Assembly (NCBI GenBank): GCA_947247005.1
Contig: OX365950.1
Span: forward strand, 6,026,720 to 6,090,719
DNA length: 64,000 bases
Direction: 5' to 3'
Source: Spisula solida
Taxonomy: Eukaryota; Mollusca; Bivalvia; Venerida; Mactridae
The notes under the pieces were generated by a model. It saw only the letters and a list, made by a program, of their open reading frames with translations, was not told the DNA's origin and did not search any database. Each line of letters opens with the position of its first letter. The first letter of the stretch is position 1. This document shows, piece after piece, positions 6,184 to 63,186 of the stretch. The position numbers and the translations under genes are program-made.

Positions 6184-6483
6184 CGTTTTTAACATTTTTT
6201 ATTTTCATAAGACTTATTATACAGCTATACACAATACATAATATACAAACAATTTTGTCAAAAAAAAATGTGAAACTAATTCCTGAATCTTTATGATATT
6301 ATTCATTATTGTCATTATGATTTTTGTAGTATATATATAGTGGAGGGGGGAGAGTTATGAGGACAGTCGCTTAGAAGATATGTTGTGGTTGTAGAGAGTG
6401 AGAAAGGAAAGTAAGAGAAAGATAATAAGAAATGGTTACGGGTTCGGGGAATTTACACAATATCACTATTTGAGTTATACAAG

Positions 6484-13716: not shown

Positions 13717-14053
13717 GGTGTAACGAACTTATGTTGAGCAGTATACTTGAAAAATTTGGCAAGCGGAGGTCTTGACTAAACACTTTTGCAATCAAAACAT
13801 TGAAGTTCAAAATTAGAGTACATCAGCAAATATGGCGTCCACCATAACAATATGAAAGATAGTTGAGTATCGAGTATTTTCAATAGTTACCAACCATAGA
13901 CACAATATTATCCAGAATTACAATTCCGTTCACAAGACACAGTTCCCAAGAATAACATAGATCCAAAAAAGTCTCTTGTAGGTTGTTAAAGAAGGCAAAG
14001 ATTCACAATTTTCACGAGAAAATATAAACGTGTCATGTTTTGATTTGTTAAAG

Positions 14054-15724: not shown

Positions 15725-16024
15725 CGTTTTTAACATTTTTTATTTTCATAAGACTTATTATACAGCTATACACAATACATAATATACAAACAATTTTGTC
15801 AAAAAAAAATGTGAAACTAATTCCTGAATCTTTATGATATTATTCATTATTGTCATTATGATTTTTGTAGTATATATATAGTGGAGGGGGGAGAGTTATG
15901 AGGACAGTCGCTTAGAAGATATGTTGTGGTTGTAGAGAGTGAGAAAGGAAAGTAAGAGAAAGATAATAAGAAATGGTTACGGGTTCGGGGAATTTACACA
16001 ATATCACTATTTGAGTTATACAAG

Positions 16025-19000
16025 TTATGAAAACTTCTGCCATTTTCTGTTACAGATTTGGAGTTTGTTTTTGAATAGTGCGATTGTTTGTTCCAGTTTT
16101 TTTCGATAGTTAATGTATTCTTTAAATGACTGAATCGTCGGTGTGTGTTTATTGTATTTACATTTAAATATGAAATATTTTGCAAGCAGTATAATATAGT
16201 TGGTAATAAGCCCATCTTCTTCTGTATTCTTTATAATGTTGCAAACTGAAATATTTTGAAATGTGATATTTAAGTCTTTTGAAAGTTTTTGTACTAGATA
16301 TGACCTAACTTCAGCCCAAAAACTTTGTACAATATGACATTCCCAGAACATATGGTATATAGAGTCTGGTTGTCTATTGCAAAAATCACATAAGCTTGAC
16401 TGGGTTATATGACACATGTGTAAAAATGAATTGTCGGGTATTATATTCATGAGGTATTTATACTGAAATTCTCTAAGTTTAGTGTCTATTGTAATAGTAT
16501 TCGTTTGTTGGAAAATTTTAACCCATTCTGTGTCTTCTATGGTGAACCTGAGATTCCATTTTTGTTTGTATTTTGGTACTGTTGATAGTTTAGTCTTGAT
16601 TAGTGAATTATATGCAATCTTACTTAATTTGCTTTTTCCATTTAGTCTATCGATTAGGTAGTTTGGTGGGTTGTATGTTATAATTTCGTTTTGCATTTGT
16701 GTCTTCCATTCTTTCGGTATGTTTTTAATGAGGGTATAGTATTTCAAGTAGTCTCCATTAGGGATATCATATAGAAATTTCATCTGCTCGAAGCTGTGGA
16801 ATATTTTGTGTCTGAAGTCAAATATATGTTCTACATACTGGATTCCTTTACTGAACCAGGTGTTATAGTAAAATAACTCATTTTTATTTATATGTTTTAT
16901 ACTTGAATTATTCCAGATGATTTGTTTGGATGTTTGGATTTCAGTGTTTAGGGTGTTGACCTTAGACCATGAAATCAATATATCCTTTAAAAATTTTGAT
17001 TTTATATTGAGACTTTTACAGTCTTTTTCAGTAATATAACATTTAAATAGTAATAATCCTCCATATTTTTCTAATTCGGTCTTGTAATGAAAACTCCAGT
17101 TGGCGTTTGAATTAAAAATTCTTTTTATCCAGCTTATATTTAGTGAATCTAGAAAACATTCCATGTCTATCATTTTTAGACCCCCGTCTTTGTATTCTTG
17201 AATTATTTGTTTACGTGATATTTTATCAGGTTTTGAATTCCACAAGAAATCAAAGAAAATTGTATTGATCAATTTTATAAAATGTGCTGGTGGGTTTTGT
17301 AACACAGTAAGGGGATAAATTAGCTTTGGAAGAACAAATGTTTTTAGAACTGCTATTTTTCCAATGAGTGTTCAGTTCCATTTTTTCCATTGTTTTAGGA
17401 CATTTTTACATTCTATTATCTTATTTGCTACATTTAGATCATACATTGAAGATATCTTATTACTGAAGGTAATTCCTAACGTAGTTGCCTCCGACGAAGT
17501 CCATTCAAATTCGTTGTCAAAGACAATATCTGTATTTTTTAGACTTCCAATGCGCAGGACTGAGCATTTGTTTCTATTAAGTTTAAGCCCAGATGTTTTA
17601 CCAAAATCGTCAAGGGTTTTTATAAGATTTTCGAAAGACGTTCGATTTCCTTTAAGTAGAAAGCTAGCATCGTCTGCAAAAAGAGTTTGTTTTGTGCTTT
17701 TATTGTTTAAATTAATACCTTCTATAGCATCGTTGTTTTCTATAGAAATAGATAAAAACTCAATACATAGGATAAAAAGATACGGTGATAGAGGACATCC
17801 TTGCCGTACACCACTCTTAATGTTAAAAAAGTCAGAAAAATGACCATTATTAGTTATACAGCCCTTCGCATTTGCATAAAAAACTTCAACCCATTGTATG
17901 AGCGAATCGCAAAAATTTAGTTCTTTTAAACATTTATACATGAATTCATGATTTAAACTATCAAATGCTTTTTGGAAATCAGAAAAGAATATGAGACCTG
18001 GTTCATTGTTAAGTTGCATTTTTTCTATTGTTTCAATAATTGTTCTCACATTCTCTCCTATATATCTTCCCTTGATGAACCCAGTTTGGTTTTCGTTAAC
18101 TATACTATCTACAACCTTTTTTATTCTATTAGCAATAACTTTTGAGGCAATTTTATAATCGACATTTAATAGTGATATTGGTCTCCAATTATTAATTGAC
18201 AAAGGATCTTTATTCTTCTTTGGTATTAATGTTATGATACTCTGGGTTTGAAGTTCTGTTAACTTCCCTATGTCGTAAGAGTAATTTAGTGAGTTAACTA
18301 GGAATGTTTTAATATCGTTCCAAAATATCTTATAGAATTCGACAGATAACCCGTCTGAACCAGGGCTTTTGTTATTATTCATTTCTCTTAGTGCGATGGA
18401 ACATTCATATTCTGAAATTATTCCACTAGTGAGTGTTTTATTATCTTCTGATAGGGTATTGTGTCCATTTGAGAAAAAAGTATTATTGCGGGTTAGACTT
18501 TCGTTAATTTTATATAAATCAGCATAAAAGTTTTTACAGTATGATAAAATATCATTGCTGTTTGTAACTATCGTGTCATTATCAGTTTTCAATTGGTGCA
18601 TGGTTTTACTTTCAGCTCTTTTGCGCTCTAGATTCGCAAAATATTTAGTATTTTTTTCCGCCCCTTCAATCCATTCGGCACGTGATCTTAAAATAATGCC
18701 TTTAATCTTTTCTTCAGTTATATCTTTTAATATTTTTTGTTGGTTAAGTAGTTCGTTATGTAGGTTTTCATTACTTGGTTCAGAGCAGATTTTACGTTCT
18801 AATCTTTCAATATTTTGTTGTATTTTTAATTCTTTTTCTTTGTTTATTTTTTGTAGTTTACTGGAATATTTAATGGCTTCATTCCGGACTGTGCCTTTAA
18901 CTAGTTCCCATAAAGTATTTGGGTTTGAATCCTTATTTATATTAGCTGTTTCATTAATTGCCTGCTTGACTTTTGTTTGGAAATCTGTATTTAACAATAT

Positions 19001-19715
19001 TGAGTTATTTATTTTGAAGAATCCTCGTCCACGCTCTGTTGACGCGAGTTCAAGATCAAATGTAACAACGGAGTGGTCGGATTTAAAGCCCATTTTAATA
19101 TAACAATCTTTCACATGATTTAAGATGTTGGACGAGACTAAGAAGTAATCTAGTCTACAATATATTGGTGGTTTATGATTAGATTGCCATGTAAACTGTT
19201 TCAAATTGGGATGCTTTAGTCTCCAAATATCATATATATCATTATTTTCCATGATCTCTTGAATTCTTTTTGAACATTTCCTGTGTGTAGTTTTGTTACC
19301 ATTTAGTTTGTCAATATTTACATCAATTATTGTATTGAAATCACCACCTATTACAAATGTTTCATCACTATTATCCATAAGTATGTTTTCTAAAATATTT
19401 AATAGTTCCTCGTCATCTTTATTAGGTCCGTATATGTTCACGAGAAGTAGGCTTTTACCGTCGATCTCTATATTTAATTATTGGAGGCGTCCTTGTTTGT
19501 ATTCTTTATAGGACTTAAGTGTAAAGTTGACATTTTCATTTATGAATATACCTATCCCTTTTCCATTCATCATAATTATTTGATGTACAGTGTATTTCTT
19601 GTAAAAAACTTATTGCAAATTTATTAAGTTTCAACCATTCGAACAATTCGATTCTTTTTGTTTTCGATGCTATACCCTTGACGTTAAGCGTACAGAACTT
19701 AATACATGTACTCAT
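16025..19715 (-). pseudogene. LINE ORF2, copy 2 (broken)
   Basis: Same domains and the same frameshift and two in-frame stops as 6484-10174; the TGA is at 17374-17372. Differences seen: N for Y in the NSNA(N/Y)WSF stretch and N for T near the C-terminus (FKNKLQ versus FKTKLQ). The shared lesions mean both copies descend from one already dead LINE. Confidence 0.93.
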
Positions 19716-22255
19716 TAACTACAGTGTAGTGTATAATTTACAATGAACAGTACTGCGCATAGAAATATTAAACTTTCTGTATTTGAAATGGAAGAATTTG
19801 TAATTGAAGTTATTCCCCTTGATTGTAAGAGCTGAAAAGACGAGAGGAAGGGGGTCTGGGAAAAGAAAGAAAGAAGAGGATATAGAAGGATTACAGTTAG
19901 AAAAAATGCCTGTCGAACAGGGGGTTAAACTCATACAGGCGAAAAGAAACATTGCGTTTCTATTTGAAATCGTTTGTAGAAAAAGACGTCAAAATGTGTC
20001 TAGGTTGGATAATTGCATATTGTTGTTTTATGATATGTTACCTGAGATGTCTTATATACATTTTGGTGTTAACATATAGCATGTATACTTCTTTAAAAGA
20101 AGGTAGGTTGTGGCATAAAAAACGTTCCAACTGATGAAAACAAATCAGTACGCATATACATGTACAATGTACAACAACTATCAACAATTATTACCATTAC
20201 TTGCATGAATATACTACAAATATATATTGCCAGTAAGATAAATAGCATGCAGGCGAAAAACAAGCATAACGTTCCTATTTGAAATAATTTGTAAAAACGA
20301 TTTCTAATGTGTCAAGGTTAGATTATAGTGTTGTTGTATTATTATATGTTTGTATAAATATATTATATTCATTAGGGTCGACATTTGCGTGTAGGCAGAT
20401 AGAATATAGACATGTACTTAAAAACAAAAGAATACAAAAAAGCAAAAATACATATTCCAAGTGTAGTAACATAATCATGTTTAAAAGGTACAACAAGTAT
20501 CACCATGCTAACTGCCGTTACTAGATTACATTAATATTGTATATATTACAATATAGGTAAACAACACACAGAAAATTAAGATTTCAATCCTGTTTTGTCA
20601 ACATTTAAGGATACGAGGAGGACATTACAACGTGATTGTGTTATTATAAAAGACCTAAAATGTACGTTTACGAGCAGGCTAATGTAAATAACCGACGTGA
20701 AAGAAATTGTAATAGGAGAAAAAATCTTATCAATATGAGGACTTTTATTATAATAAAAGCGTAAAGACGTGTTAATGTGCAACATACATGCGTAAGAACA
20801 AAACAAAACGTATTGTCAGTCAGGAGTAAATATAACTGTTACGTACTGCTATATCCATCATTATTGAAGTGTAGGGGATGTTTTTGTAAAAAAATAGATG
20901 TACATCAATTTTTTAATATCATTATAATAGATATGTGTTGGTACTAGTTATAAAGCATAACATTGCCATCAAAGGTATGTACCATGTTGGATATGAGAAT
21001 GTAATTCTAAGAAATCGGTTGCTGTCAAGCCGAAAACGGTATTTATAATACCGCGCACTTAATCGGGTTAATACATGTAAAGCAATATATTTAATATAAT
21101 TAGTACTTAAAGCATGTACTGACAAAGAAATCATGCGTGCAATATTTATATTTGCAGCTCAAAAACATAACGATGTTCCTAATGTCTAGTTATAAATCAT
21201 ACATGGAGGAATACGCCTCTAATACATTACAATACAGACAAAATACCATATCTTTGAGTGTACATGTCAAGTGCGCAACGTGCCAGTATACATTCTTATA
21301 TATATTTCCCTTGCGTCGTGACCTTTCATGTGTAAAGGAGACGAGAATGGAATCACAGAAAGTATTTATTGATAGAGAAATATAATCATGCAGACATGAG
21401 TACGTTCCCAAATAAAATCGCTTCAATCTAGCTAAATGTATACAAACATACAACGCACTTGAAGATTCCTGTTATATGTAACCTTGGCGATATATCGAAA
21501 TGCAAGGAAACATATTAGGAAAAAAAATAAATATCAAAAAGTACGACACCATTGTCTTATAATGTAAGCATTTAACACTATATTGTAACATACTTAAGCC
21601 ATACAACGCCTTTGACCCCTCAAATACGTAAACAGACGGCACTTACAAACCACAGACTTGCAATCTCCAGAATAGTAATGGTTACCAGTATCCAGTGCGC
21701 AGCCATATTGAGAAAAACAAAACGTGCCCATCTCGATGGGTCAAGAAACCGCATCATAATTATACTATGACAATACATTAATTTGGATATAGACACTTCG
21801 TACTACACATATTTTGCTGATTTGTATGTGATAATTTTATTTAATCATTTATTCAATTACTCATACAGTAGCAATAGGAGTAATAACTTGTTGTGCTATG
21901 ATGTGTGCGTTATGTACTTCTATCGATTTGATGGAAGAAAACAATAAATTATCATAATTTAGTACTATTGATTTACCGAAGCAATGTCGAAATGTATTAA
22001 TTAAAGTACATAATATACATAATTATATAATTATTGTAGGTCGCACAATCTTATGAAGTAGGACACATTCATTCGAGCGTTTATTGAAGTAATACATTCA
22101 TGATTTCCTTCATTCACTTATATTTGTCGTGAGTTAAATAAACACAGAGAGGTTTAATACTACAACTGGCTATCAATGAATTTACACTTCACAGAAAAGT
22201 ATACGCGCTGCTTTTATCATAAGTATGTCCAAAGTTTTGAATAAATTGATGAGAT

Positions 22256-23257
22256 CTACTCCGATTGTTCTTTTTCTTCTGGCCATTTCATTTCAATCCA
22301 GTATTTGAACTCACTTTCTTTCACTTCGTGTTTGTCACCAGTCTTGTTGAGGTAAAAGATACGTCCATCTTTAGACCATGCTGCATCGATCTCGTCCGGG
22401 GATTTAGATTGCACACTCGATAAAACCTCAAAGTTTAACTTGGTCAGATCCTCACATATGAAAACTCCGGTTTTCTTCAGCAGTTTTTTGTTATAGAAGA
22501 TAAAGTTACGCAGCAGACGAGATTGAAATTTAACGATAATCTGTTGTTTGTTCTGTTTACGTCTACCAACCCTGTGAGCGATGTCGATGTCACTAAGTCT
22601 GAGATTTAGATGAATATCTTGCATCTTTTCGTTCAGAACTTTGCAGACTAGTGACGTGGTTTCTTCGGCACTTTCGTTAGATGAAACTGGCACTCCATTT
22701 ATCCGAATACTATTTCGCCGGGAATATTGTTCCAGACTATTCATTGATAAGTCAGTTTTGTAGACGGCAGCATCGAGATCAGACCTGAGTTGGTCTTTAT
22801 CATCTTTAAGGTTTAGATTTTCGTTTTCAAGTGCTTTAATTTTCTCTTTTAGCTCATCGTTTTCTTTTTCTTTATCAAACAATCTACCTTCGAGTATTTC
22901 TATTCGTTTTGATACTGAGTCTAATAGTTCATCTTTCACTTGATTCAGTACTTCTTTAATCATGTTCTTAAGAGAAACGTCACCCTTGGTAATAACATTT
23001 GATAATTTCTCGTTCATTTCTTTAAGCTGTGTTTTAATTTCAGACATTTGCGGACTACTTTCATCAGTAATGGTTTGTTTACCTTTTTTTTTGGTACTAG
23101 GTTCAGTTGGTTCTTTCTGCTGTTTTGTTTCAGCCATAGTTGGCTTTTGTTTACATTTGCGGGTTTTGATGTTTTCACTACTATTTTCCTTATCTTCTAT
23201 CATTGACACTTCAACACAGGTATTGTCCTCTTTACTATTACTTTTAATTTGACTCAT
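22256..23257 (-). CDS. LINE ORF1 protein, copy 2
   Basis: 333 residues with the same translation as copy 1. The one nucleotide difference noticed in the frame (near 23085) does not change the protein. Coiled coil then RRM-like and C-terminal domain, as described at 12715-13716. Confidence 0.88.
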   Translation of the reverse strand: MSQIKSNSKEDNTCVEVSMIEDKENSSENIKTRKCKQKPTMAETKQQKEPTEPSTKKKGKQTITDESSPQMSEIKTQLKEMNEKLSNVITKGDVSLKNMIKEVLNQVKDELLDSVSKRIEILEGRLFDKEKENDELKEKIKALENENLNLKDDKDQLRSDLDAAVYKTDLSMNSLEQYSRRNSIRINGVPVSSNESAEETTSLVCKVLNEKMQDIHLNLRLSDIDIAHRVGRRKQNKQQIIVKFQSRLLRNFIFYNKKLLKKTGVFICEDLTKLNFEVLSSVQSKSPDEIDAAWSKDGRIFYLNKTGDKHEVKESEFKYWIEMKWPEEKEQSE

Positions 23258-23594
23258 GGTGTAACGAACTTATGTTGAGCAGTATACTTGAAAAATTTGG
23301 CAAGCGGAGGTCTTGACTAAACACTTTTGCAATCAAAACATTGAAGTTCAAAATTAGAGTACATCAGCAAATATGGCGTCCACCATAACAATATGAAAGA
23401 TAGTTGAGTATCGAGTATTTTCAATAGTTACCAACCATAGACACAATATTATCCAGAATTACAATTCCGTTCACAAGACACAGTTCCCAAGAATAACATA
23501 GATCCAAAAAAGTCTCTTGTAGGTTGTTAAAGAAGGCAAAGATTCACAATTTTCACGAGAAAATATAAACGTGTCATGTTTTGATTTGTTAAAG

Positions 23595-25266
23595 CACGGT
23601 TTAGTTAGTAATTAAAAGTAAAACTACACTAGTCGAATGTTCTAAGTACACACTTTGTATTTTTCATTTAATTGAAAAAATATTAGACCTATCTGTGAAT
23701 CGAATGTACCATTGGAGTCAGGAAACTATTGTCTATCACGTTGAGTTAATTACCATTCTAAAATATAATAACAACATATTAGAAAACGAACATTTAGTTC
23801 ACTGCTTAAAACAACGAAGTCGCACATCAATATCGTGTATGACCACAGTCTGCCCTGTTGATAGCCTGACATCTCTGAGGCTTTGAATTGATAAAGATGT
23901 GTACTAATTGCTAAGGGTGTGCATTTAGTGTAGGTAAAGGGTGCGTTATGAGTTCCTATACGGTCTGGTGTTGTCGTCGTGCTCGGATGCGACACCCAAA
24001 CTCATCGCAGACGTAATCTATCGGATTTAGGTCCAGGCTACAAGGCGACCATACCATCGTGCAACCTAATTAAAAAATTGCATTAAAATGTAATGAGAAT
24101 GTGTTCGTATCTTACAAAAGACATGATTGATAGAAAAAAAGTGAGTTTTGTTAAATTTTAGTAGTAATTCGGATGATAAGTGCCTATTGAAAGTTACTTC
24201 CATGCTCAAACTAAAATTGCTCCATACAACTGAATGGACCTATTCTGTTCAGTTCAACGATTCCACATTATTTCACGATCTTAAAGTGATACAACTATCA
24301 GTCAGATGTTGTCATAATCATGTTTTGACGCATTCAACGACTAAATGTAAATGACGTCATGTGACGTCTCAATTTTTAATCGAGTCAATATAAACATGCA
24401 TTTTTTTCGTGAATTAAATGCAGCTACCATAATCATAATTATGTGCATGAGTTAAGAACCCCGAAACAGACAATTAATGGATTAAATCTTACCCGTCTTA
24501 TTGACATGCCGCTTTCAAGCATTCCTATCGCACTTGCGCACTCCTCAAGCGTCATTTACGTCATATAATACGAAATATTTTTATGGCTTTATGTTTGGGG
24601 GTCAAACATCCATCGTGTATGAAATGCTTTGAACACATTTACACATATTTGAGATGTGTGCACTAGAAAAATGTGATTTTATCATTTTCGTCACGTATCA
24701 ATGATTTTTACGTAGATCTTGATTTTTCTTTTTCTGTATTAAAGACAAATATCCACATATGATATCTATACAGTTTTAGTGAGTTTAGATAAGTATGTTC
24801 CTGATTTATTCTAGTTCTAAAAGTGTGTACTTAGAACATTCGTCAAGTGTATATGAATTGTATGACATATTTACCAGTGTTCGGCCACATTGCCTTCACA
24901 TCACAGAGCTATAGTTCGATAGTAGGTTCAGAGCACCAAAGTGTATTTTTACAATAAAATAGCGATATCAAACTTCTTTGAAATCGCGAATTTGCCAGAC
25001 AAAAAGAGGCGAAATACTCTTCATACGATAGATTGCTAGACCCTCAGCAAATATAGTTTTCAACATCAATGTATGATATGAGTAAACGATTCTAATCCAC
25101 ATGTAGATTTATGTCGGGACCTAAATTCATATTTGTTTATGGATGGGAAATTCAAGTCGTGTTGATTTAAGCATGATTAATGAGTTTTTTGTTTATGCTC
25201 CAGTATTTCACTAGAAGAAGAGGATGATGAACTATATGGCGGGGTGTTTGTATCAAAGTTTTTTTC
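23595..25266. repeat. Segment A2, right copy of the flanking repeat
   Basis: 446 bp plus the second 1,223-bp element. It ends in the same T-run as A0 and A1, but then continues directly into unique DNA (AATAAATCATCGAG) instead of a LINE. It therefore shows the right side of the original target. Confidence 0.85.
23627..24849. mobile_element. Non-autonomous Tc1/mariner-like element (1,223 bp), copy 2
   Basis: Same element, same TA site (23625-23626 and 24850-24851) and same ends as 14086-15308. It was copied with the tandem unit. Confidence 0.87.
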
Positions 25267-28749: not shown

Positions 28750-31251
28750 TTATTTGGTTTGTGGATGTATATTATTTTAAAATTATTTACAGTATCTTGA
28801 TGGTTTGTTCCTATGGTATTGACGCATATTATAGTAGGATGTCGGAATTTGCAGCTGTTAGGTATTTAGTGCTCTGCTGTTTCTGGTGAATGATGCCTTC
28901 TCAGAACGATTATTTGTGTTATGTTTGCAATATTGTATTATGAGTTATAAGATAAACAGGAACATAAAATAGTATGCACCCTTTGTCAAGAAAGTATTTG
29001 TACGAGTCATGCAAATGCGAAATCAGTTTCTTATTAATTTGTGTTTGACGCCATAATCGAGATCTCTGTTTTGCCAAGCAATATGACTAAACATACTCTG
29101 ACAATATTTTGGAACATCCGCACAGAGAAATTTATTTTTGGTAAATGAGGTAAGAGATACTTGTATGTTGAGAGATAATTGTCTACACGTGTTCGGAAGA
29201 ATGTCGCCATGCTCTAGCGGTAACCTTCTAGACTCGCAAGAAAACTGAACAAGTGGTTTCCTTAAGTTGTGCGATTTCAAATAGGCATACGAGCATTGTT
29301 CACAAAAGATTCCGTGCTTTTTCTCCCTTGCAACGGCAAGTCTCTTTAGAATGCTCTATCCCTGTGCTAACAAGTATTGATTTCGTACATTGTACATGTA
29401 TGTAAGCTTTATATAAAAACTACATATTTTCTCGGTTTTGCATGTGCACCTTTTACCTTTGAAATGGCATTCGTAATTGCGTGTCATACACAGTTCTTTT
29501 TGAGGAACGTCAAGCCGAACAACGTCTAGGTCGTTGTACTCATGTAATTATCGCAGAGCTATGAAAGGATCAAGTCCATTATGACAACACAAACATACAG
29601 AGATTTACATGCTGCTGGAGAAGACAAAAATCCGGTCTCGGACATAATTACATTATCTGTTGTTGACACCATATCGACACAGGAGTGCTGTAAGGTATAA
29701 CTAATGGTGTAATAATATTACGCAGATAAGTAAATGTAAGCCGATTTATATACTTAATCATTCACATTGCCTGAACGTTAATGTGTTTACGAGTAAATTA
29801 CGATGCGGATGACGTGGACAAAACATTCACCTTTCTAGTAAACAAGCAAACAGCCCAGTGTCCATCGGTATATTAATTAACCAATGCTTAAATACCCAAT
29901 ATAATTACAACTGGAGGGGGATTACACTACTGTCGGTCCCAAGTAAAGTCCTTTGTCGAATACTCCTGAACAGAATTACCGATGAATTAGACAAAATACT
30001 GAGACAAGAACGAGCTGAATTTAGGAGAGGAAAAGGTTGCACAGATCAGATCTTTACCCTCAAGAACATTATAGAACAGTGCATCGAATGGAAGACTCTT
30101 TTATTTCTAAATTTCATAGATTTCAAGAAAGCCTTTGACAGCATTAACAGAGAGACACTCTTGACAATACTGCAATCATATGGAGTGCCAGAAAAGATAG
30201 TAACCCTCATCAAATGTTTTATACCAACTTTGAATGTGCAGTACTACTAAATAACAAAGCTACTGATTGGTTTGAAGTCACATCTGGAGTAAGACAGGGT
30301 TGCATCATCTCGCCTCTCGTATTTTCAGTTGCCATTGATTGGGTAATGAGAAAGACGAACAACCAGAAAAGAGGCATAACATGGTCCATGTTCACAACAT
30401 TAGAGGACCTTGACTTCGTAGACGACATAGCTCTTCTGTCATCAAAACACGATCAATGCAGGAGAAAACAAGTCGACTCAGCCATTTCGCAAACCAAGTT
30501 GGGCTCCAAATCAATGCCAAAAAGACACAAGAAATGCGTTGCAACCCAACATCCAATGCCATACAAGTTGCTGACAATATAGAAATTGAAAAGGTTGAAA
30601 CTTTTACGTACCTTCGCTCAGTTGTTAGCACTGCAGACCCTACACACAAGGACATCAAAAACAGACTAGCGAAAGCAAGATCAGCATTCCACAGACTTAG
30701 ACCAATATGGAAGTCCAACCAATACAGCCGGAAAACACAGTTGCGTATTTACAACAGCAATGTTAAATCCATACTACTGTATGGGAGTGAATCCTGGAGA
30801 GTGACCAAATTTGACATGAAATCACTATCAACCTTCCACCATGGCTGCCTCAGACAAATTTCCAACAAAAACCTTCTTGATTTAACAAATTCCATCTGTG
30901 TCATCCAGGTAATCAAACCGCGACGTTTTCGATGGCTAGGACATGTCCTCAGAATGCCCGTATCAAACAACACCAGAATAGCCATTCGATGGACACCACA
31001 GGGTAAGAGGCCAAGAGGAAGACCAAAGACCACCTGGCGCCGAACAGTAGAAACGGAACTGAAAGAATTGGGACTAACCTGGGGCGAGACTGAAGCGAAA
31101 GCCAAGAACAGAGCTGGATGGAGAAATCTTGTTGCGACCTTAAGTTCCGACTCGGATCCAGGAGATTAAGTAAGTAAGTAATAGCATCTCAATTGGTCGA
31201 ATTTGTATACATGTACACACAAAACACCACAAACTTGTACTAGTTAGCTTA
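28750..31251 (+). repeat. Dispersed repeat family R1, copy B
   Basis: Starts near TTATTTGGTTTGTGGATG, collinear with copy A from 29246 on and with the reverse complement of copy C over its whole length. It ends at CTAGTTAGCTTAC, where copy A continues but B enters palindrome cluster 1. It contains the second LINE fragment. Confidence 0.8.
29908..31178 (+). pseudogene. 5'-truncated LINE reverse transcriptase, better preserved copy
   Basis: Same insertion as 676-1950 (same truncation point, same TAAG tail, same flanking R1 sequence), so the two are copies of one event. It shares the frameshifts near 30215 and 30455, but the last 237 codons (30456-31169) are open and end SSDSDPGD. RT motifs: FKKAFDSINRETL, GVRQGCIISPLVF and DFVDDIALLSS. 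It is dead: no endonuclease and no full RT frame. Confidence 0.9.
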
Positions 31252-32520
31252 CTACAGAAATTTAGCAAATCTCTTAGAACGTTCTAAGAGAAAATTTACC
31301 AATACATTATTCTCAAAGAAAATGGGTGAATCCCCTAGAACGTTCTAAGAGAAAACTGAAGAGAAGTCTACTTAATTACAAAACGTTTGAGCAGAAATTT
31401 AACAAATATCTTAGAACGTTCTAAGAGAAAATTGACCAATAAATTTTTTACATTCTCAATCAAATGGGTGAATCCCTTAGAACGTTCTAAGAGAATATTG
31501 AACAAAATTCTACTTAATTACAAAACGTTTGAACAGAAATTCAAGAAATCTTTTAGAACGTTCTAAGAAAAATGATTAATTTTCCCAATGTGTTATAATA
31601 TTAAAAAATCTCTTAGAACGTTCTAAGAGAATGTGAAAAACGTAGATTGAAATATTTTACAGAAAATTACCAAATCTCTAAGTAAGGTTCTAAGAGAAAA
31701 CGACCAAATCTGGTTGACAGTCATAATATAAACATGTACACATCTCTTAGAACGTTCTAAGAGAAAATTATATATTAATAGCTTGAAACATTTTAACAGA
31801 ATTGATCGAATCTCTTTGAATAATCTTAGAGAACTTGACAAAATATGCAAAAATCTCTTAGAACGTTCTAAGAGAAAATGACCAAATCTGGTAGAATATT
31901 ATAACAATAAAATGCACAAATATCTTAGAACGTTCTAAGAGATTATGACACAATTTGATTGAACATATTTCTGATGAAAGTATCCAACATCTATTCTAAT
32001 GTTATCATATAAATTAACCTATCTCTCTGAACGTTTTAAGGGAAAATGACAAACATTTCTTATCATGTCTTGAGAGAAAAAGATGAGATGTCGTAGAACG
32101 TTCTATTAGAAATTTAAAAAAGTAAGACAGAACTTTTTTTATCTGTAACACAGAGGTAGTATGGTGAGTATCGTCGCTATACAACAAGAACATTTAAGAC
32201 CCAATGTGTCTGTTCGGATAGTGTTACTGTATCGTATGCGGTTCTCACGTATCAAACATTCTTTCTCAAGTTTTCTTCCATTGAAGCCGGAGGTCATTCG
32301 TAATTAAGAATGACCACGCACTTGCGACTGTCTGAGTCGGACGCAACAACGTTGTAATAGAAATTGACCAAATCTCTTAAAACGTTCTAAGTAAAAATGC
32401 CAATAAGTTCATATTAAAGTGTTTTAAGACAAAATGGCGAAATGTCTTAGAGAATATTCTTAGAGAAGACGAATAAAAACGACCGGATCTCTTAGAATGT
32501 TCTAGGAGAAGTCGAAAAAA
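31252..32520. repeat. Palindrome cluster 1 (22-bp palindrome array)
   Basis: About 16 copies or variants of a 22-bp palindrome made of TCTCTTAGAAC joined to its reverse complement, about 60-80 bp apart. Perfect copies start at 31270, 31609, 31743 and 31854. Others differ at one or two outer bases; those beyond 32000 are more decayed. Spacers are AT-rich and related to those of cluster 2 in inverse orientation. No ORF. Confidence 0.92.
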
Positions 32521-33239
32521 ATGACAAAATCTCTATGTTTTTGAGAAATGAAGAGTCGAGCTAACAAAATTTTTCTCAACAAAGTCATAGTATGTTTGAT
32601 TACAATGTCCTTTCAAGTGATTATATTCCATTCCAGTCTTTTGTGATGGTTATCTCCCTGATTCGTCATAGTCTGCAATATAAGTGACGTGGTAATACAT
32701 AATAATAATAACATGTAATTTTCACTTTATCAAAGTCAAACGTTTATTTAGAAGACATTGGTCGTAAGACATTTATATGCGATCCATGCACATTCTTTAC
32801 TTTCTTATAATAAAATACTTAATGTAATGTAAAAATGTAATACTTGTACCAGTAATACAATTATTTATATCCTTTCCGCTACCATATCGTTCTAATGCAG
32901 ACTGGCCGGGATGGCCATTTCGGCTTTCCATAGTTCACGGCCTAAATGCCCAAATTAGGGAATTGTGCTGTCATGGATACACACGCATCCTAGACTTAAG
33001 GATATCACGTGTCCAATGTCGCGCACAGGTTTTTGGTTCCGATGGTCCCCTTTAAAGAGGGATTCTAACGTAGGTCTTCTAAAACAGAAATTAATGCGGT
33101 ACGAGTCCCTGTGGAATTACATTAACAGTTAGCGCCCAAATGTGTTTATCTTGGTATAAAAAGAGGCCAACCTAGCTTAAAAAAGAAGTTATTCACGCAA
33201 GGGTCACTGTCAAAAGTTTTTATAATTGGCTTACAACCT
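32521..33239. other. No gene recognised
   Basis: AT-rich unique-looking sequence. Only short ORFs without domains. Confidence 0.5.
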
Positions 33240-40001: not shown

Positions 40002-41822
40002 TCTCTTAGAACGTTCTAAGAGATGTGTTTAATTTCGCTTAAAACGTTTTATAATTAGGACCAGTTTCGTTTAATTTTGGTCAATTTTTCTATGAGGTAG
40101 TCAATGTATTAGTCATTTTTTTACCAGTTTTGTAATGAAGTAGAATTTTGATCGTTCTAAGAGATTCGACCATTTCCTTTGAGAATGTAAAAAATGCATA
40201 GATCAAATTCTCTTAGAACGTTCTAAGATAATTGTCAAATTTATGTTACATGTTTTGTAATGAAGTAGAATTGTGTTCAATATTCTCTTAGAACGTTCTA
40301 AGAGATTCACCCATTTACTTTGAGAATGTAAAAAAATTATTCATCAATTTCCCTTAGAACGTTCTAAGGGATTTGCTAAATTTCTGTTAAAACGTTTCGT
40401 AATGAAGTAGAATTTTGTTAAATATTCTCTTAGAACGTTCTAAGAGATTCGGCCATTTTCTTTAAGAATGTAAAATTGCATAGGTCAATTTCTCTTAGAA
40501 CGTTCTAAGAGATTCACCCATTCACTTTGAGAATGTAAAAAATTGATTCATCAATTTCTCTTAGAACGTTCTAAGAGAAATTGATGAATCAATGTTTTAC
40601 ATTCTCAAAGTAAATGGGTGCATCTCTTAGAACGTTCTAAGAGAATATTGAACAAAAATCTACTTCATCACAAAACATGTAACAGAAATTTGACAATTCT
40701 CTTAGAACGTTCTAAGAGAAATTGACCTATGCAATTTTACATTCTTAAAGAAAATGGCCGAATCTCTTAGAACGTTCTAAGAGAATATTTAACAAAATTT
40801 GCTAAATTTCTGTTAAAACGTTTCGTAATGAAGTAGAATTTTGTTTAATATTCTCTTAGAACGTTCTAAGAGATTCGGCCATTTTCTTTATGAATGTAAA
40901 ATTGCGTAGGTCAATTTCTCTTAGAACGTTCTAAGAGAATTGTCAAATTTCTGTTACATGTTTTGTAATGAAGTAGAATTTTGTTCAATATTCTCTTAGA
41001 ACGTTCTAAGAGATTCACCCATTTACTGTGAGAATGTAACACATTGATTCATCCATTTCTCTTAGAACGTTCTAAGAGATTTGCTAGATTTCTGTTAAAA
41101 CGTTTCGTAATGAAGGCGAATTTTGTTCAATATTCTCTTAGAACGTTCTAAGAGATCATTCGGCCATTTTCTATAATAATGTAAAATTGCATACGTCAAT
41201 TTCTCTTAGAACGTTCTAAGAGATTTGTTTAATTTTGCTTAAAACGTTTTATAAATAAGACCACTTTCGTTTCATTTTCTCTTAGAATGTTCTAACAGAT
41301 TTGCTGACTGCGTCTTAAAACGTTTCATAATAAAAAAAATTGTATAGGTTTCTCTTAGAACGTTCTAAGAGACTCAGCAATTTTCTTTTAGGATAAAAAT
41401 GCATTGGTCAATTCTTTGAGAATGTTATAAAATATAAATGTATGGGTGAATTTTCTCTTAGAACGTTCTAAGAGATTCGTTGAATTTCTCTTAAAACGGT
41501 CTATACTCGAGACAATTTGTTTTAATTTTCTGTTATAACGTTCTAAGAGATTTGGCGGAGAATGTATAAATGCATTGGTCAATTTCTCTTAGAATGTTCT
41601 AAGAGATTTGTTAAATTTCTGTTAAAAGTTTGGTAATGTAGTAGAATCTTGTTCAATATTTTCTTAGAACGTTCTAAGAGATTCGCCCATTTTCTATGAG
41701 AATGTTAACAATGTATTGGTCACTTTTCTCTTAGAACGTTCTAAGAGATTTGTTGAATTTCTCTTAATACGGTTTATACTCAAGACAAATTTTGTTAAAT
41801 TATCTTAGAACGTTCTAAGATT
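40002..41822. repeat. Palindrome cluster 2 (22-bp palindrome array)
   Basis: Seventeen perfect copies of the 22-bp palindrome, starting at 40002, 40284, 40426, 40491, 40557, 40623, 40698, 40763, 40852, 40917, 40992, 41058, 41134, 41202, 41351, 41454 and 41727, plus at least eight variants. Two spacer types alternate. One of about 45 bp holds TTTGAGAATGTAAAA; one of about 54 bp holds TTAAAACGTTTCGTAATG. Each spacer thus has a decayed palindrome-like centre, which suggests a shorter ancestral monomer. The palindromes are more constant than the spacers. At 40350-40371 both arms carry the matching change (TCCCTTAG with CTAAGGGA). The block from about 40568 to 40797 is inverted relative to its surroundings. 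Confidence 0.95.
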
Positions 41823-54300: not shown

Positions 54301-57300
54301 GGTAACATTTTATCACATAGAGCTACATTTAGGTGCAGAACAGTGTTGTGTTTATTGCGGCCGTAAATAACGATACACAAATTTATAAAATCCGAAATTT
54401 TCAGAATCGTTGTTTTCAGTGATGTACCAAGTATTGATCATACATTGATTGATCACTTATTCATGATGTCAAACAAGTTGTCTAACAGTGTCAGTAACAG
54501 TTGTGAGTCTGATCTGGACCAGGTTCACACGAAGTTACTGGTCCTGAAGGTGAGTTGGTTATGCATAGATGACCTGGACTTGGGCAGTCGCAAATGGTGC
54601 CAGTGTGTTAGTAGTGTGTATCTAGACGAAAAAACTTTGGCACATAACAATTTAACTGTCATGCTATCTCCCATTTGACATCACTGCCACAAGCATACAC
54701 ATGGCCTGATTTTGCTCATATTTAGACAATCATGACATTTTATTCTTAAACATACGCCATTTCTTTTGTGATTTTCTTTCTATCAGCAAAGAGTTTGATG
54801 TAATTTATACCAAAATTTATCATACATAAACGATGCACGTGGAAATTCTGCTTTTTGTGATTCTAACAGCGCACAGGTTTTACGCAAAACGATCAATAAA
54901 ATTTGGATGACGGCCAAGTTTCTACAAGTAAATTAAAGTTACATACGGTTGACATCCCACAGATTTAAGGTGGAAGAACAATGCAGGTTCATGTGTCTGT
55001 AGAAGCGTCTCAAACAGCAAACTTAAGCATACGATACCCTACAAATATACAATACTAGGTTGAATACCATTAAAATGTTAGTACAATAATACCATTGGGC
55101 TTTTCAGAATTTTAATTTTATACATACAGTGGGGGGTCAGGTATGGAAGGGGTACACATGAACGAAATTCAAGGAATTGAATCGCACATTTTGAGGCACC
55201 TCAGCATTTTTCGCATATTGTGCATATACAGTCACTGTGGTACATCCTTGTTTGGACAAGCCCAGTCTTACCCGTGAACTTGTGAAGCATGTATGCATCT
55301 ATGTCTGCCAAATAAGCATTAATTTTTAAGATCCTGGTGAAGTTAGGTGAACTTAGGTGAACCGAATAGACCAATAGGGGTCACCTACGGGTCATGATCT
55401 ACCTACATACGAAAGTGGGGAATCGTAACCGAGCAGTCATAGAGAGTGGGTATAATAACAGAACAGAGACAAGGGCGATGTACAAAAATATTGAATTGCT
55501 AAAAAAGAATTGAATTGGTGGGAAATAATACTAGAGGCAGAGTGGGTGGGGCACAATAACAGAACTGAGTAAGTATAAGATTTACCTGAGGATGTGAAGA
55601 GATACTATGCAACCGGAAGAAGTATCGAGTGTAAATCTCTCGAAATACGTAGTACAATTTGACTGGTTCTTGATACAGGTAACACAAAGGAGCCACTGAA
55701 TTTAAAACAATATCACAGAACTTAAACTACTACATATTGTTACAATATTTATAAGTCAAGATATTTTAGTTTTTTTAACCCTTTACTCCAGGCTCTCTAC
55801 ATATCAAAATCATCTCCATACAGCTTATTGGAAAGTATTTGAAAATTGCCAAGACTGGTGCCTGCCGCAAGTTTACAGTAAAGATGGAACTAGGCTAAAA
55901 ACACACTTGCTTTCAGAGAGGTAACTCACTAAAGCTGTTATTATGGCCCTCTCTTTTTATTTTTCTCTGAGCATATGTCTTAAGGTTTACTCAAAAAGGT
56001 CTGACAGGAAATAAAGTTTTTTGAGATACTAATGATCTTTGTTTGCAGGTGGTATTTTCAGAAACGTTTTGTACTAGTGGCCTTTGTTTGCAGGTGGTAT
56101 TTTCAGAAACGTTTTGTACTATAGCGTTCTTTGTTTGCAGGTGGTATTTTCAGAAACGTTTTGTACTAGCGGTCTTTGTTTGCAGGTGGTATTTTCAGAA
56201 ACGTTTTGTACTAGCGGTCTTTGTTTGCAGGTGGTATTTTCAGAAACGTTTTGTACTAGTGGCCTTTGTTTGCAGGTGGTATTTTCAGAAACGTTTTGTA
56301 CTAGCGGTCTTTGTTTGCAGGTGGTATTTTCAGACACGTTTTGTACTAGCGGTCTTTGTTTGCAGGTGGTATTTTCAGAAACGTTTTGTACTAGCGGTCT
56401 TTGTTTGCAGGTGGTATTTTCAGAAACGTTTTGTACTAGCGGTCTTTGTTTGCAGGTGGTATTTCAGAAACGTTTTGTACTAGCGGTCTTTGTTTGCAGG
56501 TGGTATTTTCAGACACGTTTTGTACTAGCGGTCTTTGTTTGCAGGTGGTATTTTCAGAAACGTTTTGTACTAGTGGTCTTTGTTTGCAGGTGGTATTTTC
56601 AGAAACGTTTTGTACTAGCGGTCTTTGTTTGCAGGTGGTATTTTCAGAAAGGTTTTGTACTAGTGGCCATTGATTGCAGGTGATCTTCGCAGAAAGGTTT
56701 TGTACTAGCAGCTTTTGTTTGCAGGTGGTCTTTGCAGAAAGGTTATAAGACGTGATCTTTGTTTGCAGGAAGTCTTGAACACAGGTTGGACTGTTAGAAC
56801 ATCAGTGTATACTCACCATACATAGCAAATCCATGGAATGGTATGACACCATTAGGTGGATATATGACAGCGTATTCCTCTACACCTAGTTTACCTCGAA
56901 TATATGACTTGGGAGGGCATGCACTGTTACAAGAGAAATGTTTCAACACTTCCGTATCTCGAGTGAATGGTAATAATATCTGAAAAGAAAACAGCATAAA
57001 ATATGGATTTTTTACAGTTTATTTCCAAGTGACATGTTGGCCACAGGCCCAATCACATACATACATACATACATTTACAAAAATGATGGACATAATGGTA
57101 TTTGATGGGCCAACCTATAAAAAGGTGTAACAGCAGACTAAATAGTGACCATATCAGAACAGATCACATCCGAGGAAGTTTCCTTTAAGTTGGAGATCAA
57201 TGGTCAACCTGGCAGGGACAAAGCTGAATGAACCATGCTTAGTAATGTCTCTGTCACATGCAAACAAACCTTCCACCCAAATTCAGGCACCTTATCAACT

Positions 57301-60300: not shown

Positions 60301-63186
60301 CTTTTCAATAATGATCTGTCAAATAAGAAATTTGATTGACTATCAACAATTCTAACATGACCGATGATATAGCCTATCTATACAAAGAGCAAACACAGCA
60401 TTGTATGTCATTCTGCCGTAGGCCTGAGTGATTAATAACAAAGCGTCAGAACTCCAAAACATTTTATATCAGCCGATATACCACAGGTTTTATTTCTTAA
60501 ATATCCTCAGTATAAAATTCATAATGCCACATCAACAATATACATGCTTTCAGTATAATTTATTAGAAGCAATTATTAGAAAATTCATTGACCATAACTT
60601 TGCCATTTCTTGAGATAAATTCGTCAAATAGCTTTTATTTTGGTCAGAAATCATAGCTCATTCAAGACAGACAAATCCGGAAGAAAACTGAACCCCTGTA
60701 GAAGAGAACATACCTTTTTTGCCAAGTTTGACTCTATCACTGTCGAACATTTCTGGAGGTATTTCACTGCTATCATCGACCCCTGTCTGACATTGGTTGA
60801 TGGCCATATCACTGTACAGTATACGCTACAAGTAAAATACATGATCACTGTACAGTATACGCTACAAGTAAAATACATGATCACTGCACAGTATACGCTA
60901 CAAGTAAAATACATGATCACTGTACAGTATACGCTACAAGTAAAATACATGATCACTGTACAGTATACACTACAAGTAAAATACATGATCACTGTACAGT
61001 ATACGCTACAAGTAAAATACATGATCACTGTACAGTATACGCTACAAGTAAAATACATGATCACTGTACAGTATACGCTACAAGTAAAATACATGATCAC
61101 TGTACAGTATACGCTACAAGTAAAATACATGATCACTGTACAGTATATGCTACAAGTAAAATACATGATCACTGTACAGTATACGCTACAAGTAAAATAC
61201 ATGATCACCGTACAGTATACGCTACAAGGAAAATACATGATCACTGTTCAGTATACGCTACAAGTAAAATACATGATCACCGTACAGTATACGCTACAAG
61301 GAAAATACATGATCACTGTACAGTATACGCTACAAGTAAAATACATGATCACCGTACAGTATACGCTACAAGTAAAATACATGATCACTGTACAGTATAC
61401 GCTACAAGTAAAATACATGATCACCGTACAGTATACGCTACAAGTAAAATACATGATCACTGTACAGTATACGCTACAAGTAAAATACATGCTAACATAT
61501 AATCAAAGGCCTAAATACAACAAATGACATTAAATCTCTCAAGATCCACATTGTTAGCCTAGTGGTAGAGCATACACTTTGAGTGTAAGTGAGCTTGGGC
61601 TTGATTCCAGACTGTTACATAACAAAGTCGTTAACAATGGTACTTGTCAACCCTTCATACGGAATGTCATCGTTGGCATTCCCTCTCAGGGTGACATTCA
61701 ACCCTCAGGTTGATAATATCAATGTCACAAACACAGATGTATGATTTTTAAATAACTCAACAATCAAATATCTGAAAATTAAGAATGGAATTAACAGGTC
61801 CACTGTGATGGTTTCTTCTTTTTATTCAACCTATCTATCAAAACCAACTCATTAATGAGACAATTTTTCAAGGATCCAAAGTTGGGTCTTATCATTGAGG
61901 GTTTTACTATATGTATGCATATAATTTTAGCTTACCAGTTTATTGACATCATTTAACTTTAATGGTAACTGGACAAGTCCCCATAATGTGTAAGTTCTAA
62001 AATATACAATAAAACAATATATAAAATTCCACAAAAACCTGATTTTCACGTCAGCCAAGTATAATTTGGCACATGCTGTTTCGTGGCAATGGCCTTGACA
62101 CAACTGGCCCCATGTTCAATCCCAAGTGCTGTTTTCTCACAAGCTATCTACAAAGCAAGTTTCGTCATGGTATCTCATGATATTTCTAACAGAAACTTTT
62201 GATTATGCATGCAAGCTCACCCAACTCCTTGGTTCATTAACGCGCACAGTGTGTAGCACCAATACATGCAAGACTCATCTGAGTTTCCAACCAGTTCATT
62301 CCTAGTTTGGAGGGAAACACCAAAAGCATTTATGAAATTTCCAGTGCCCTGGCCGAGATTGGCAGTCGAGAGCACTGCCATGGACCACTTGCCCACTGTT
62401 CCACCCATATGGTTAATAATAATTATACATTCATTGGTCCCCAAAATGCTGTGTTACCAACAAATACTCAGGTGAAAACATCAGACACTATAATTATGGT
62501 AGTTGAACTGCACCATTGGCATACAGAACACTTGTAATTGATAGGTTAAAGACACCTGCATTTTCCCTAACCACCCTACCCTAGTACAGGTACTGATCTT
62601 AGTATAACTCACCCCGTGGAGTCACCTGCATTGTAGTTTGGATTCTGTAGACACATGATTACCTCTAGGAAATCTTTAGGTGCATACACAGGCCTTATCT
62701 GACTTAGATCTGGAAAGAAAATATTCTATTATTCATGTATTTATTTATTTGTGTTAAACGCTGTTGCTCAACAGTTATTCAGTTATATATATACAGTTCA
62801 ACTGACTAGTTTTTTTTGGACTGCATTCTAAACAGTACAAATGTACCATTCAAAAAGGAACCACCAACTTCTTGACTTGTGACTGGGTAACATGGAGTAA
62901 AGGTTTAGTAAAGGATGTTTCATTACATTAATGTTTAGAAGAGTCATAGATTAAAAGCCCTACATTGGGCACAATTTTAAACATTGAGTTACTTCATTAG
63001 ACATACGTATCCAAAGATAAATACAGGGACATATACATTACAAAAGTGACCCATCGAAAAGAACCTGCATGAAGGAAGTGGTGAATAAATTACATGTAAG
63101 GATAAACCAATGTCAAGGTTACCTGGTCCATCAGTTCCTAATTCTGTCCATCGTGATAGTAAATCTTTCTGCTCCTTCTCAGGTCT
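51266..63186 (-). CDS. TBC1D19: TBC1D19 orthologue, C-terminal 401 residues in 13 exons (5' end outside the window)
   Basis: Thirteen coding exons join in phase, all with AG acceptors and GT donors, into 1,206 nt ending in TGA at 51268-51266. The protein matches what I recall of TBC1D19 along its length (RPEKEQKDLLSRW, SYIRGKLGVEEYAV, FFRLHSISSHP, FKWLVRAFSGYL, LLLWDRILAFNSLEIL). TBC domains usually act as GTPase-activating domains for Rab proteins in membrane traffic; the role of TBC1D19 is poorly known. The usual arginine (IxxDxxR) and glutamine (YxQ) fingers are not seen at the aligned sites (LLVDSLLYK and YPPNGVIPFHG), so it may be non-catalytic. The human protein is about 526 residues, so roughly the first 125 are missing beyond 64,000. 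The introns carry a Tigger-like element, MITEs, SINE heads and two minisatellites. Confidence 0.93.
51407..51666. mobile_element. TATAG-family MITE, copy 3 (260 bp), in the last TBC1D19 intron
   Basis: Ends TATAGCCTAGAGAATTTGAC and, inverted, TATAGCACAGAGAATTTGAC. CAGTGT flanks both sides (51401-51406, 51667-51672), a 6-bp target duplication. It landed in a local repeat with the motif TTACTCCCCTTGGTA. Confidence 0.82.
52180..52245 (+). mobile_element. tRNA-like SINE head in a TBC1D19 intron
   Basis: ACAGCCTAGTAGAATAGCA (A-box-like) and CTTGGTTCAATTCAAGG (B-box-like). Confidence 0.45.
52459..52529 (-). CDS. TBC1D19: TBC1D19, exon 12 of the window
   Basis: 71 nt; reads VLAVAIFSFRKTNLVKVQSY then NAAE. 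Acceptor TTTCAG, donor GTAAAC. Confidence 0.9.
53506..53892. mobile_element. Possible decayed MITE in a TBC1D19 intron
   Basis: Left TACAGTACAATTGCTTCAGA and inverted right TACTGTTCAACCTCTGTAGA are similar. Internal copies of AGxGGCACTCTxTxGA occur near 53520 and 53733. The ends are too degraded to be sure. Confidence 0.35.
53902..54017 (-). CDS. TBC1D19: TBC1D19, exon 11 of the window
   Basis: 116 nt; contains LKIAFKWLVRAFSGYLSSDQ and VLLLWDRILAFNSLEILP, the C-terminal TBC core motif. Donor GTATAAC is weak. Confidence 0.92.
54947..55038 (-). CDS. TBC1D19: TBC1D19, exon 10 of the window
   Basis: 92 nt; reads GIVCLSLLFETLLQTHEPAL then FFHLKSVGCQ. Acceptor ATTTGTAG, donor GTATGT. Confidence 0.92.
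55586..55695 (-). CDS. TBC1D19: TBC1D19, exon 9 of the window
   Basis: 110 nt; reads VAPLCYLYQEPVKLYYVFRE then IYTRYFFRLHSISSHPQ, counting the split first codon. Donor GTAAAT. Confidence 0.93.
56036..56770. repeat. 45-bp minisatellite, about 16 units, in a TBC1D19 intron
   Basis: Unit on the plus strand: GTGGTATTTTCAGAAACG, then TTTTGTACTAGCGGTC, then TTTGTTTGCAG. Most units are 45 bp and nearly identical; one near 56459 has lost a T, and the last few units are diverged. The period is a multiple of three, so long open frames result on both strands; these are artefacts. Confidence 0.95.
56817..56979 (-). CDS. TBC1D19: TBC1D19, exon 8 of the window
   Basis: 163 nt; contains RDTEVLKHFSCNSACPPKSY, IRGKLGVEEYAV and YPPNGVIPFHGFAMY. 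Acceptor TTTTCAG, donor GTGAGT. The 45-bp minisatellite begins about 50 bp into the following intron. Confidence 0.93.
57055..57075. repeat. CATA microsatellite
   Basis: About five CATA units in an intron of TBC1D19. Confidence 0.85.
57528..57590 (-). CDS. TBC1D19: TBC1D19, exon 7 of the window
   Basis: 63 nt, phase 0 both sides; reads DVKLTATNDDQYFVFEDFLY then Q. Donor GTAAGT. Confidence 0.92.
57871..58721. mobile_element. Non-autonomous pogo/Tigger-like element (851 bp) in a TBC1D19 intron
   Basis: Left end CAGTCAGATCTCGATACAAC and inverted right end CAGTCAGGACTCGTTACAAC, flanked by TA (57869-57870, 58722-58723). Inner copies of GTCGTTATAACGA lie near both ends. No transposase ORF. Confidence 0.88.
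59053..59127 (-). CDS. TBC1D19: TBC1D19, exon 6 of the window
   Basis: 75 nt, phase 0 both sides; reads DTLYYEQLKSNVIAHDLLVD then SLLYK. The Rab-GAP arginine finger position appears not to be arginine. Confidence 0.92.
59880..59965 (-). mobile_element. tRNA-like SINE head in a TBC1D19 intron
   Basis: On the minus strand CTGAGTGGTCTAGGCATTTG and GTTGTAGGTTTGATCCC are spaced like A- and B-boxes with a long variable region. Confidence 0.5.
60017..60129 (-). CDS. TBC1D19: TBC1D19, exon 5 of the window (start of the TBC domain)
   Basis: 113 nt; reads ITADHGPLSQEYAKKGCPIS then LRAILWGQILGIELDEF. The GCPISLRAILW stretch is the domain-opening motif (family GIPxxLRxxxW). Donor GTAAGT. Confidence 0.92.
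60714..60825 (-). CDS. TBC1D19: TBC1D19, exon 4 of the window, behind the splice-site minisatellite
   Basis: 112 nt if the last acceptor (TTTACTTGTAG) is used. It reads RILYSDMAINQCQTGVDDSS then EIPPEMFDSDRVKLGKK. Starting with CGTATACTG restores the five residues expected between NKL and DMAIN in the family, and the phase fits both neighbours. Its first 18 nt are the last unit of the tandem array. Confidence 0.85.
60808..61491 (-). repeat. 36-bp minisatellite of 19 units, each an intron-exon junction of TBC1D19
   Basis: Exactly 19 units of 36 bp (684 bp). On the gene's strand each unit is 18 nt of intron end (CATGTATTTTACTTGTAG) and 18 nt of exon start (CGTATACTGTACAGTGAT). The last unit's exon half is the real start of exon 4; the first unit's intron half joins the original intron. 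Variants include CTTGTAG preceded by C instead of A in two units and single changes in TGTACAG. Each upstream unit read as exon is 12 in-frame codons ending in the acceptor's own TAG. Confidence 0.93.
61550..61700 (+). mobile_element. tRNA-like SINE head in a TBC1D19 intron
   Basis: TTAGCCTAGTGGTAGAGCAT (A-box-like) and TTGGGCTTGATTCCAG (B-box-like), followed by about 100 bp of body. Confidence 0.5.
61936..61996 (-). CDS. TBC1D19: TBC1D19, exon 3 of the window
   Basis: 61 nt; reads TYTLWGLVQLPLKLNDVNKL. Ends in phase 0 at donor GTAAGC. The next intron contains the 36-bp minisatellite at its 3' end. Confidence 0.9.
62613..62709 (-). CDS. TBC1D19: TBC1D19, exon 2 of the window
   Basis: 97 nt; reads DLSQIRPVYAPKDFLEVIMC then LQNPNYNAGDSTG. 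Acceptor TTTCCAG, donor GTGAGT. Confidence 0.9.
63123..63186 (-). CDS. TBC1D19: TBC1D19, exon 1 of the window
   Basis: 64 nt, starts in phase 0 after GTGTAACAG; reads RPEKEQKDLLSRWTELGTDG. Donor GTAACC. The exon before it was not found between 63187 and 64000. Confidence 0.88.

Follow-up and report, generated by a model that had tools for sequence, protein, structure and literature searches.

How does a gene keep to one 3′ splice site when that site stands in 19 nearly identical copies in a row? The question is raised by a minisatellite in a 64,000-nucleotide stretch of the genome of the bivalve Spisula solida (assembly GCA_947247005.1, contig OX365950.1, positions 6,026,720 to 6,090,719), which we refer to as the window. 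The minisatellite occupies positions 60808..61491 on the minus strand, at the boundary between an intron and an exon of TBC1D19, and each unit holds the last 18 nt of the intron and the first 18 nt of the exon. The best explanation that we can offer, and one that we consider probable, is a boundary minisatellite whose units supply their own branch points, with splicing mostly at the most exon-proximal copy, unit 19, by exon definition.

The array is 684 bp long and consists of 19.0 units of exactly 36 bp, without a single indel. On the minus strand the unit reads CATGTATTTTACTTGTAG|CGTATACTGTACAGTGAT, where the bar is the intron/exon boundary. Intron flanks the array at one side and the TBC1D19 exon at the other, which bears out the first-pass annotation in its description of a tandemly multiplied 3′ splice site. 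If three mismatches or fewer are allowed, a 30-base core of the unit occurs 19 times in the window, whereas 100 shuffles give a mean of 0. The units are 96% alike, and substitutions, six kinds in all, are confined to 8 of the 19. The intron end TTGTAG is unchanged in every unit, yet six kinds of substitution in the array are too few to conclude that the acceptors are under selection. Units 12, 13, 14 and 19 are identical over 54 nt, from −36 to +18. Closer to the intron, units 1-8 (61204..61491, minus strand) follow a 72-bp two-unit higher-order pattern in which A and G alternate at unit position 31; the G is found in units 2, 4, 6 and 8, a spacing expected by chance in 13 of the 3876 placements of four among 19 units. 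This pattern suggests that the array turns over at its intron side.

The minus-strand gene is TBC1D19, judged by the TBC domain of its predicted protein and by similarity along that protein. Joining the exons of the window gives a conceptual protein of 336 residues with 631 protein matches at E<=0.001; 120 of these homologues were listed and 20 of the 120 were aligned. Over the query, the top five of the listed matches show 79-87% identity, and the best named ones are the TBC1D19 proteins of Mya arenaria and Dreissena polymorpha. The Pfam RabGAP-TBC domain is matched at 47.5 bits (cut-off 25.2). With the closest homologue, the 523-residue protein P0001, as a tblastn query, residues 122-523 fall into 13 ordered minus-strand pieces running from 63189 to 51269, which are 77-100% identical and whose matched coding residues contain no stops. 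For residues 1-121 of P0001 tblastn gives no convincing match within the window, which places the earlier TBC1D19 exons outside it. P0001 is itself probably derived from a transcript, since the whole protein sits in contigs of at most 1795 bases.

Upstream of the array lies an exon of 61 nt (61936..61996, minus strand), which ends in phase 0 with the donor CTG|GTAAGC. Downstream is an exon of 112 nt (60714..60825, minus strand), which begins at the acceptor of unit 19 and ends in the donor AAG|GTATGT. We number these exons E3 and E4 locally. The first-pass annotation had called the latter exon 4; the exon was found, but the number holds only locally, with residues 1-121 encoded elsewhere. If unit 19 (60808..60843, minus strand) is used, the intron between the two exons (60826..61935, minus strand) measures 1110 nt, and it would measure 462 nt without the other 18 units.

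Which of the 19 acceptors makes the protein? The alignment runs without gaps across the junction of these exons in 19 of the 20 aligned homologues. The junction reads NRL|RILYSDMAINQC in P0001 and NKL|RILYSDMAINQC in Spisula solida, and all 37 residues past it are identical to those of P0001. The sole exception is P0032, a gene model from Mya arenaria in which the 61-nt exon is missing, together with the initial residues of the exon after it and further segments. The continuity of the junction and the 37 of 37 identity together point to the acceptor of unit 19, with its exon start at 60825, as the protein-coding one.

The reading frame agrees with this. With the upstream exon included, only one of 20 TAG sites (19 in the array and one abutting its intron end) stays open, at 60825, and none of 15 CAG sites does. 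When 57 AGs were examined over a wider stretch, which began in the intron and reached 40 nt beyond the exon start, two stayed open: 60825 itself and, within the exon, the AG at 60786, whose use would remove 13 codons. The earlier claim of a single productive, exon-proximal acceptor in the array is thus upheld. The other 18 array acceptors, again with the upstream exon included, all run into an in-frame UAG within 12 codons, encoding RILYSDHVFYL-stop or a near variant, just as had been predicted. This closure needs no more than an acceptor ending in TAG, a junction in phase 0 and a unit length that is a multiple of 3. Exons made through these acceptors would be 148-760 nt long instead of 112 nt, with the stop 112-724 nt ahead of the next junction. 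The longest belongs to unit 1, the intron-proximal unit (61456..61491, minus strand), whose acceptor would start a 760-nt exon at 61473. Skipping the 112-nt exon also leads to a stop.

A side observation concerns the inner ACAG of unit 19 (60811). If the 61-nt exon is skipped, splicing at this site is in frame and makes the same join as the Mya model P0032. This join is open at unit 19 only, and may correspond to a shorter isoform without 25 residues.

How could an acceptor at the far end of the array find a branch point? The first AG is generally chosen by scanning from the branch point, and AGs closer than 12-15 nt are bypassed, according to the AG-exclusion rule as described in PMC1431707. 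The best candidate for an ancestral branch point is CTTTGAT, within the region just upstream of the array (61492..61510, minus strand); 29 nt separate its A from the exon start that unit 1 offers. This makes it a fair match to the upstream ancestral branch point that had been proposed. Its score is 4.7 with rough branch-point matrices, so that all such scores are rankings at best. Under the scanning rule this candidate should serve unit 1, not unit 19, if it is a branch point at all. The nearest AG upstream of the 60825 acceptor is at −22, and under the same rule the branch point for that acceptor should lie within about 37 nt, all of it array sequence.

The best candidate within the array is CAGTGAT, with 19 nt from its A to the exon and no AG between. 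It is exon sequence (codons Ser-Asp) that was set before intron sequence at the duplication junction, and its TGAT is intact in all 19 units. CAGTGAT scores 3.3, and 4.1 in the form CGGTGAT where position 31 is G; for nine other TBC1D19 introns the top-ranking candidates range from 1.2 to 5.95. By this ranking CAGTGAT would be a mediocre branch point. Since it was made at the duplication junction, each unit can act as a complete 3′ splice site by itself. The first-pass annotation had raised the idea that each unit supplies a branch point of its own; in silico this stands, with the TGAT heptamer at the same 19-nt distance from every acceptor, but the candidate is no better than mediocre.

We propose the following course of events. 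A 36-bp segment across the intron/exon boundary of TBC1D19 would have grown to 19 copies via slippage or unequal exchange. The first duplication would have joined exon-derived ...AGTGAT to intron-derived CATGTATTTTACTTGTAG, giving every downstream AG its own branch-point candidate 19 nt before it. The most exon-proximal acceptor may therefore have been complete from the outset, so that the array could grow without loss of the gene. Unit 19 would be used in most splicing. Units 12, 13, 14 and 19 are locally identical, so that only features of longer range can set unit 19 apart. The probable explanation is exon definition: the advantage of unit 19 would be positional, through pairing over the 112-nt exon with the downstream donor AAG|GTATGT. 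Transcripts that take an upstream acceptor would reach a UAG within 12 codons; they would yield no complete TBC1D19 and would presumably be degraded. Recursive or repeated removal of units was considered and ruled out, as the donors within the unit are poor: five in-unit GTs score −2.7 to −6.5, against −0.4 to 6.4 for seven donors of the gene (rough weights).

Several points weigh against this account. CAGTGAT pairs poorly with U2 (+1.8 kcal/mol, against +1.4 for the ancestral CTTTGAT), while two other TBC1D19 introns hold candidates at −4.5 kcal/mol. Furthermore, CAGTGAT scores below the ancestral candidate, which would favour unit 1. The downstream donor on which exon definition would depend ranks third among seven in a rough scoring, and the dominance of exon definition in Spisula solida is assumed. 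The use of the unit 19 acceptor is something that we infer from the proteins of relatives. RNA structure was tried as the selector and rejected; an 847-nt fold of the array, the exon and some intron has a z of −0.22, and 7 of 20 shuffles fold as well.

Could upstream acceptors be used to some purpose, as the first-pass annotation had suggested? A sizeable share of transcripts may take them, be closed by UAG and decay, with the length of the array setting TBC1D19 output. Eighteen of the 19 acceptors are unproductive although they hardly differ from the productive one, the best candidate for the ancestral branch point speaks for unit 1, and the stops lie 112-724 nt before the next junction, beyond the usual 50-nt rule for the distance from stop to junction in nonsense-mediated decay. 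That said, genes of amphioxus with comparable boundary minisatellites ('mirages', see below) are reported to splice normally, and the stop shows no sign of selection. The array tail was absent from all of 154 proteins, among them the 34 that a query for a truncated isoform with this tail had returned; the argument is a weak one, as no protein of the species itself was recognized there and the database may lack it. We regard such unproductive splicing, at a level that matters, as rather unlikely. A stronger form of this idea would make the array a length-tunable bank of poison acceptors, built of complete branch-point/AG units, each with its UAG, whose captured share of splicing rises with copy number. 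Minisatellite length would then quantitatively set TBC1D19 output between individuals. We think this an unlikely possibility.

Equally doubtful is the suggestion that the long array is a recent, neutral or mildly harmful private allele, perhaps heterozygous, whose haplotype yields little TBC1D19. The 96% likeness of the units and the two-unit pattern at the intron side would suit a young array, and amphioxus mirages are polymorphic, one globin gene having 6 units in one haplotype and 3 in another, as described in PMC3087553. The 13 coding pieces are open and 77-100% identical to P0001, so that the gene looks kept, although a gene with a recent allele would look alike. An error of assembly or copy number, with the true array shorter or absent, is very unlikely in our view. 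Assemblers are prone to slip in tandem arrays, and the window also contains a 9.96-kb tandem duplication at 99.93% identity. However, the array of 684 bp is no simple copy, with substitutions peculiar to single units and a two-unit pattern inside it, and the window contains no Ns. Least of all do we believe that the true exon start is the inner ACAG|TGAT at 60811, a candidate that was rejected: with the 61-nt exon included a UGA follows at once, the CAG is lost in 4 of the 19 units, and the 61-nt exon together with the residues between both sites is kept in 19 of 20 homologues. In favour of this start one can cite P0032, which joins an upstream exon to DMAINQ at the same place, and the frame that opens here, at unit 19 only, once the 61-nt exon is skipped. 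A boundary minisatellite with unit-supplied branch points, spliced mostly at unit 19, thus remains our preferred account.

The locus is a natural competition test of 3′ splice-site choice. Four of its 19 acceptors are identical over 54 nt and differ only in their distance to the donors on either side. Does splicing prefer the first acceptor, the last, or any of them? The answer bears on branch-point scanning versus exon definition. The array may also serve as a model for how a duplication yields a new branch point out of coding sequence.

TBC1D19 contains a second minisatellite, at 56036-56744 (45 bp x 15.7), in another of its introns. It lies about 72 nt past the donor at 56816, although diverged copies may come nearer, and on the opposite strand its unit is acceptor-like (TCTTTGTTTGCAG|GT). 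We ruled it out as a second boundary-spanning array, as it lies within the intron past that donor.

The window contains further repeats. Two tandem copies of a LINE-like element span 5766-25266, with 9960 bp at 99.93% identity and a period of 9541 bp, so that three copies of a 419-bp segment are present (5766-6184, 15307-15725 and 24848-25266). In one copy a 701-aa frame has endonuclease and reverse transcriptase domains (Pfam); a 337-aa frame has no Pfam match. Either the retroelement forms a genuine tandem dimer or the assembly has duplicated it falsely. The pair is flanked by a two-copy repeat (1-2025 and 29245-31252; 96% identical and 29 kb apart) in which reverse-transcriptase-like frames were recognized by eye. 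Repeats based on the palindrome TCTTAGAACGTTCTAAGAGA or near variants of it form clusters at 31254-32534 and 40153-41820, in part with inverted orientation between the two. Scans of the window for tRNAs and Rfam families gave no hits.

Are arrays of this kind known? Anatomically, as far as sequence can tell, this one is a 'mirage' minisatellite: the unit spans an intron/exon boundary, and the authentic boundary occurs once beside its duplicates, with the homologous protein obtained, among the array acceptors, from 60825 only. Mirages are described from amphioxus as minisatellites across intron/exon boundaries in Adh3 and the globins BflGb6 and BflGb9 (PMC3087553), and further ones in troponin C and PGBD5 (PMC3902484). 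Regular splicing is said there to be undisturbed, from Adh3 data and globin RT-PCR (PMC3087553), and a second account also reports no disturbance of splicing (PMC3902484). Somatic instability has been seen at Adh3 (PMC3087553). In view of these precedents the multiplied splice site is less novel than the first-pass annotation presented it.

The likeness extends to tandem repeats that span a boundary and multiply splice signals, to homogenization within the cluster and, according to the description of BflGb6, to a unit made of the 3′ end of an intron and the 5′ part of an exon. There are also differences. The host is a mollusc and not a cephalochordate, there are 19 copies as opposed to the 6 and 3 given for BflGb6, and the unit is 36 bp instead of 150-160 bp (10-72 bp in Adh3). 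All 19 acceptors are intact here, whereas AG/GT is described as kept in many, not all, of the amphioxus repeats. Furthermore, normal splicing is reported for the amphioxus mirages, while the Spisula solida array is known from the genomic sequence of one haplotype.

Other routes by which tandem repeats create splice sites fit less well. Intron gain by tandem duplication of AG|GT finds no footing here, with CGTATA after the acceptor and no AGGT in the unit. The human IFI6 (6-16) gene reportedly contains a minisatellite with multiple splice donors, going by the title of a 1995 report by Turri. Such a minisatellite would resemble ours in multiplying one splice site of a gene, but with donors there and acceptors here; a repeat that supplies 5′ splice sites is not what we find, with poor donor scores for the GTs in the unit. 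In human segmental duplications, minisatellite units averaging 30 bp, some of them at exon-intron boundaries, are described as altering splicing (PMC2812944). Short units at exon-intron boundaries are common to both systems. The human repeats are described as making new introns or lengthening coding repeats, whereas the Spisula solida array would be almost wholly intronic in the expected mRNA and its in-array donors score poorly. Within the open-licence literature we found no bivalve case of a splice-site minisatellite; other molluscs were not searched. The TBC1D19 array suggests that mirages are not peculiar to lancelets. The phenomenon itself is already known from these animals, and what we describe looks like an unusually long and clean example of it, in a mollusc.

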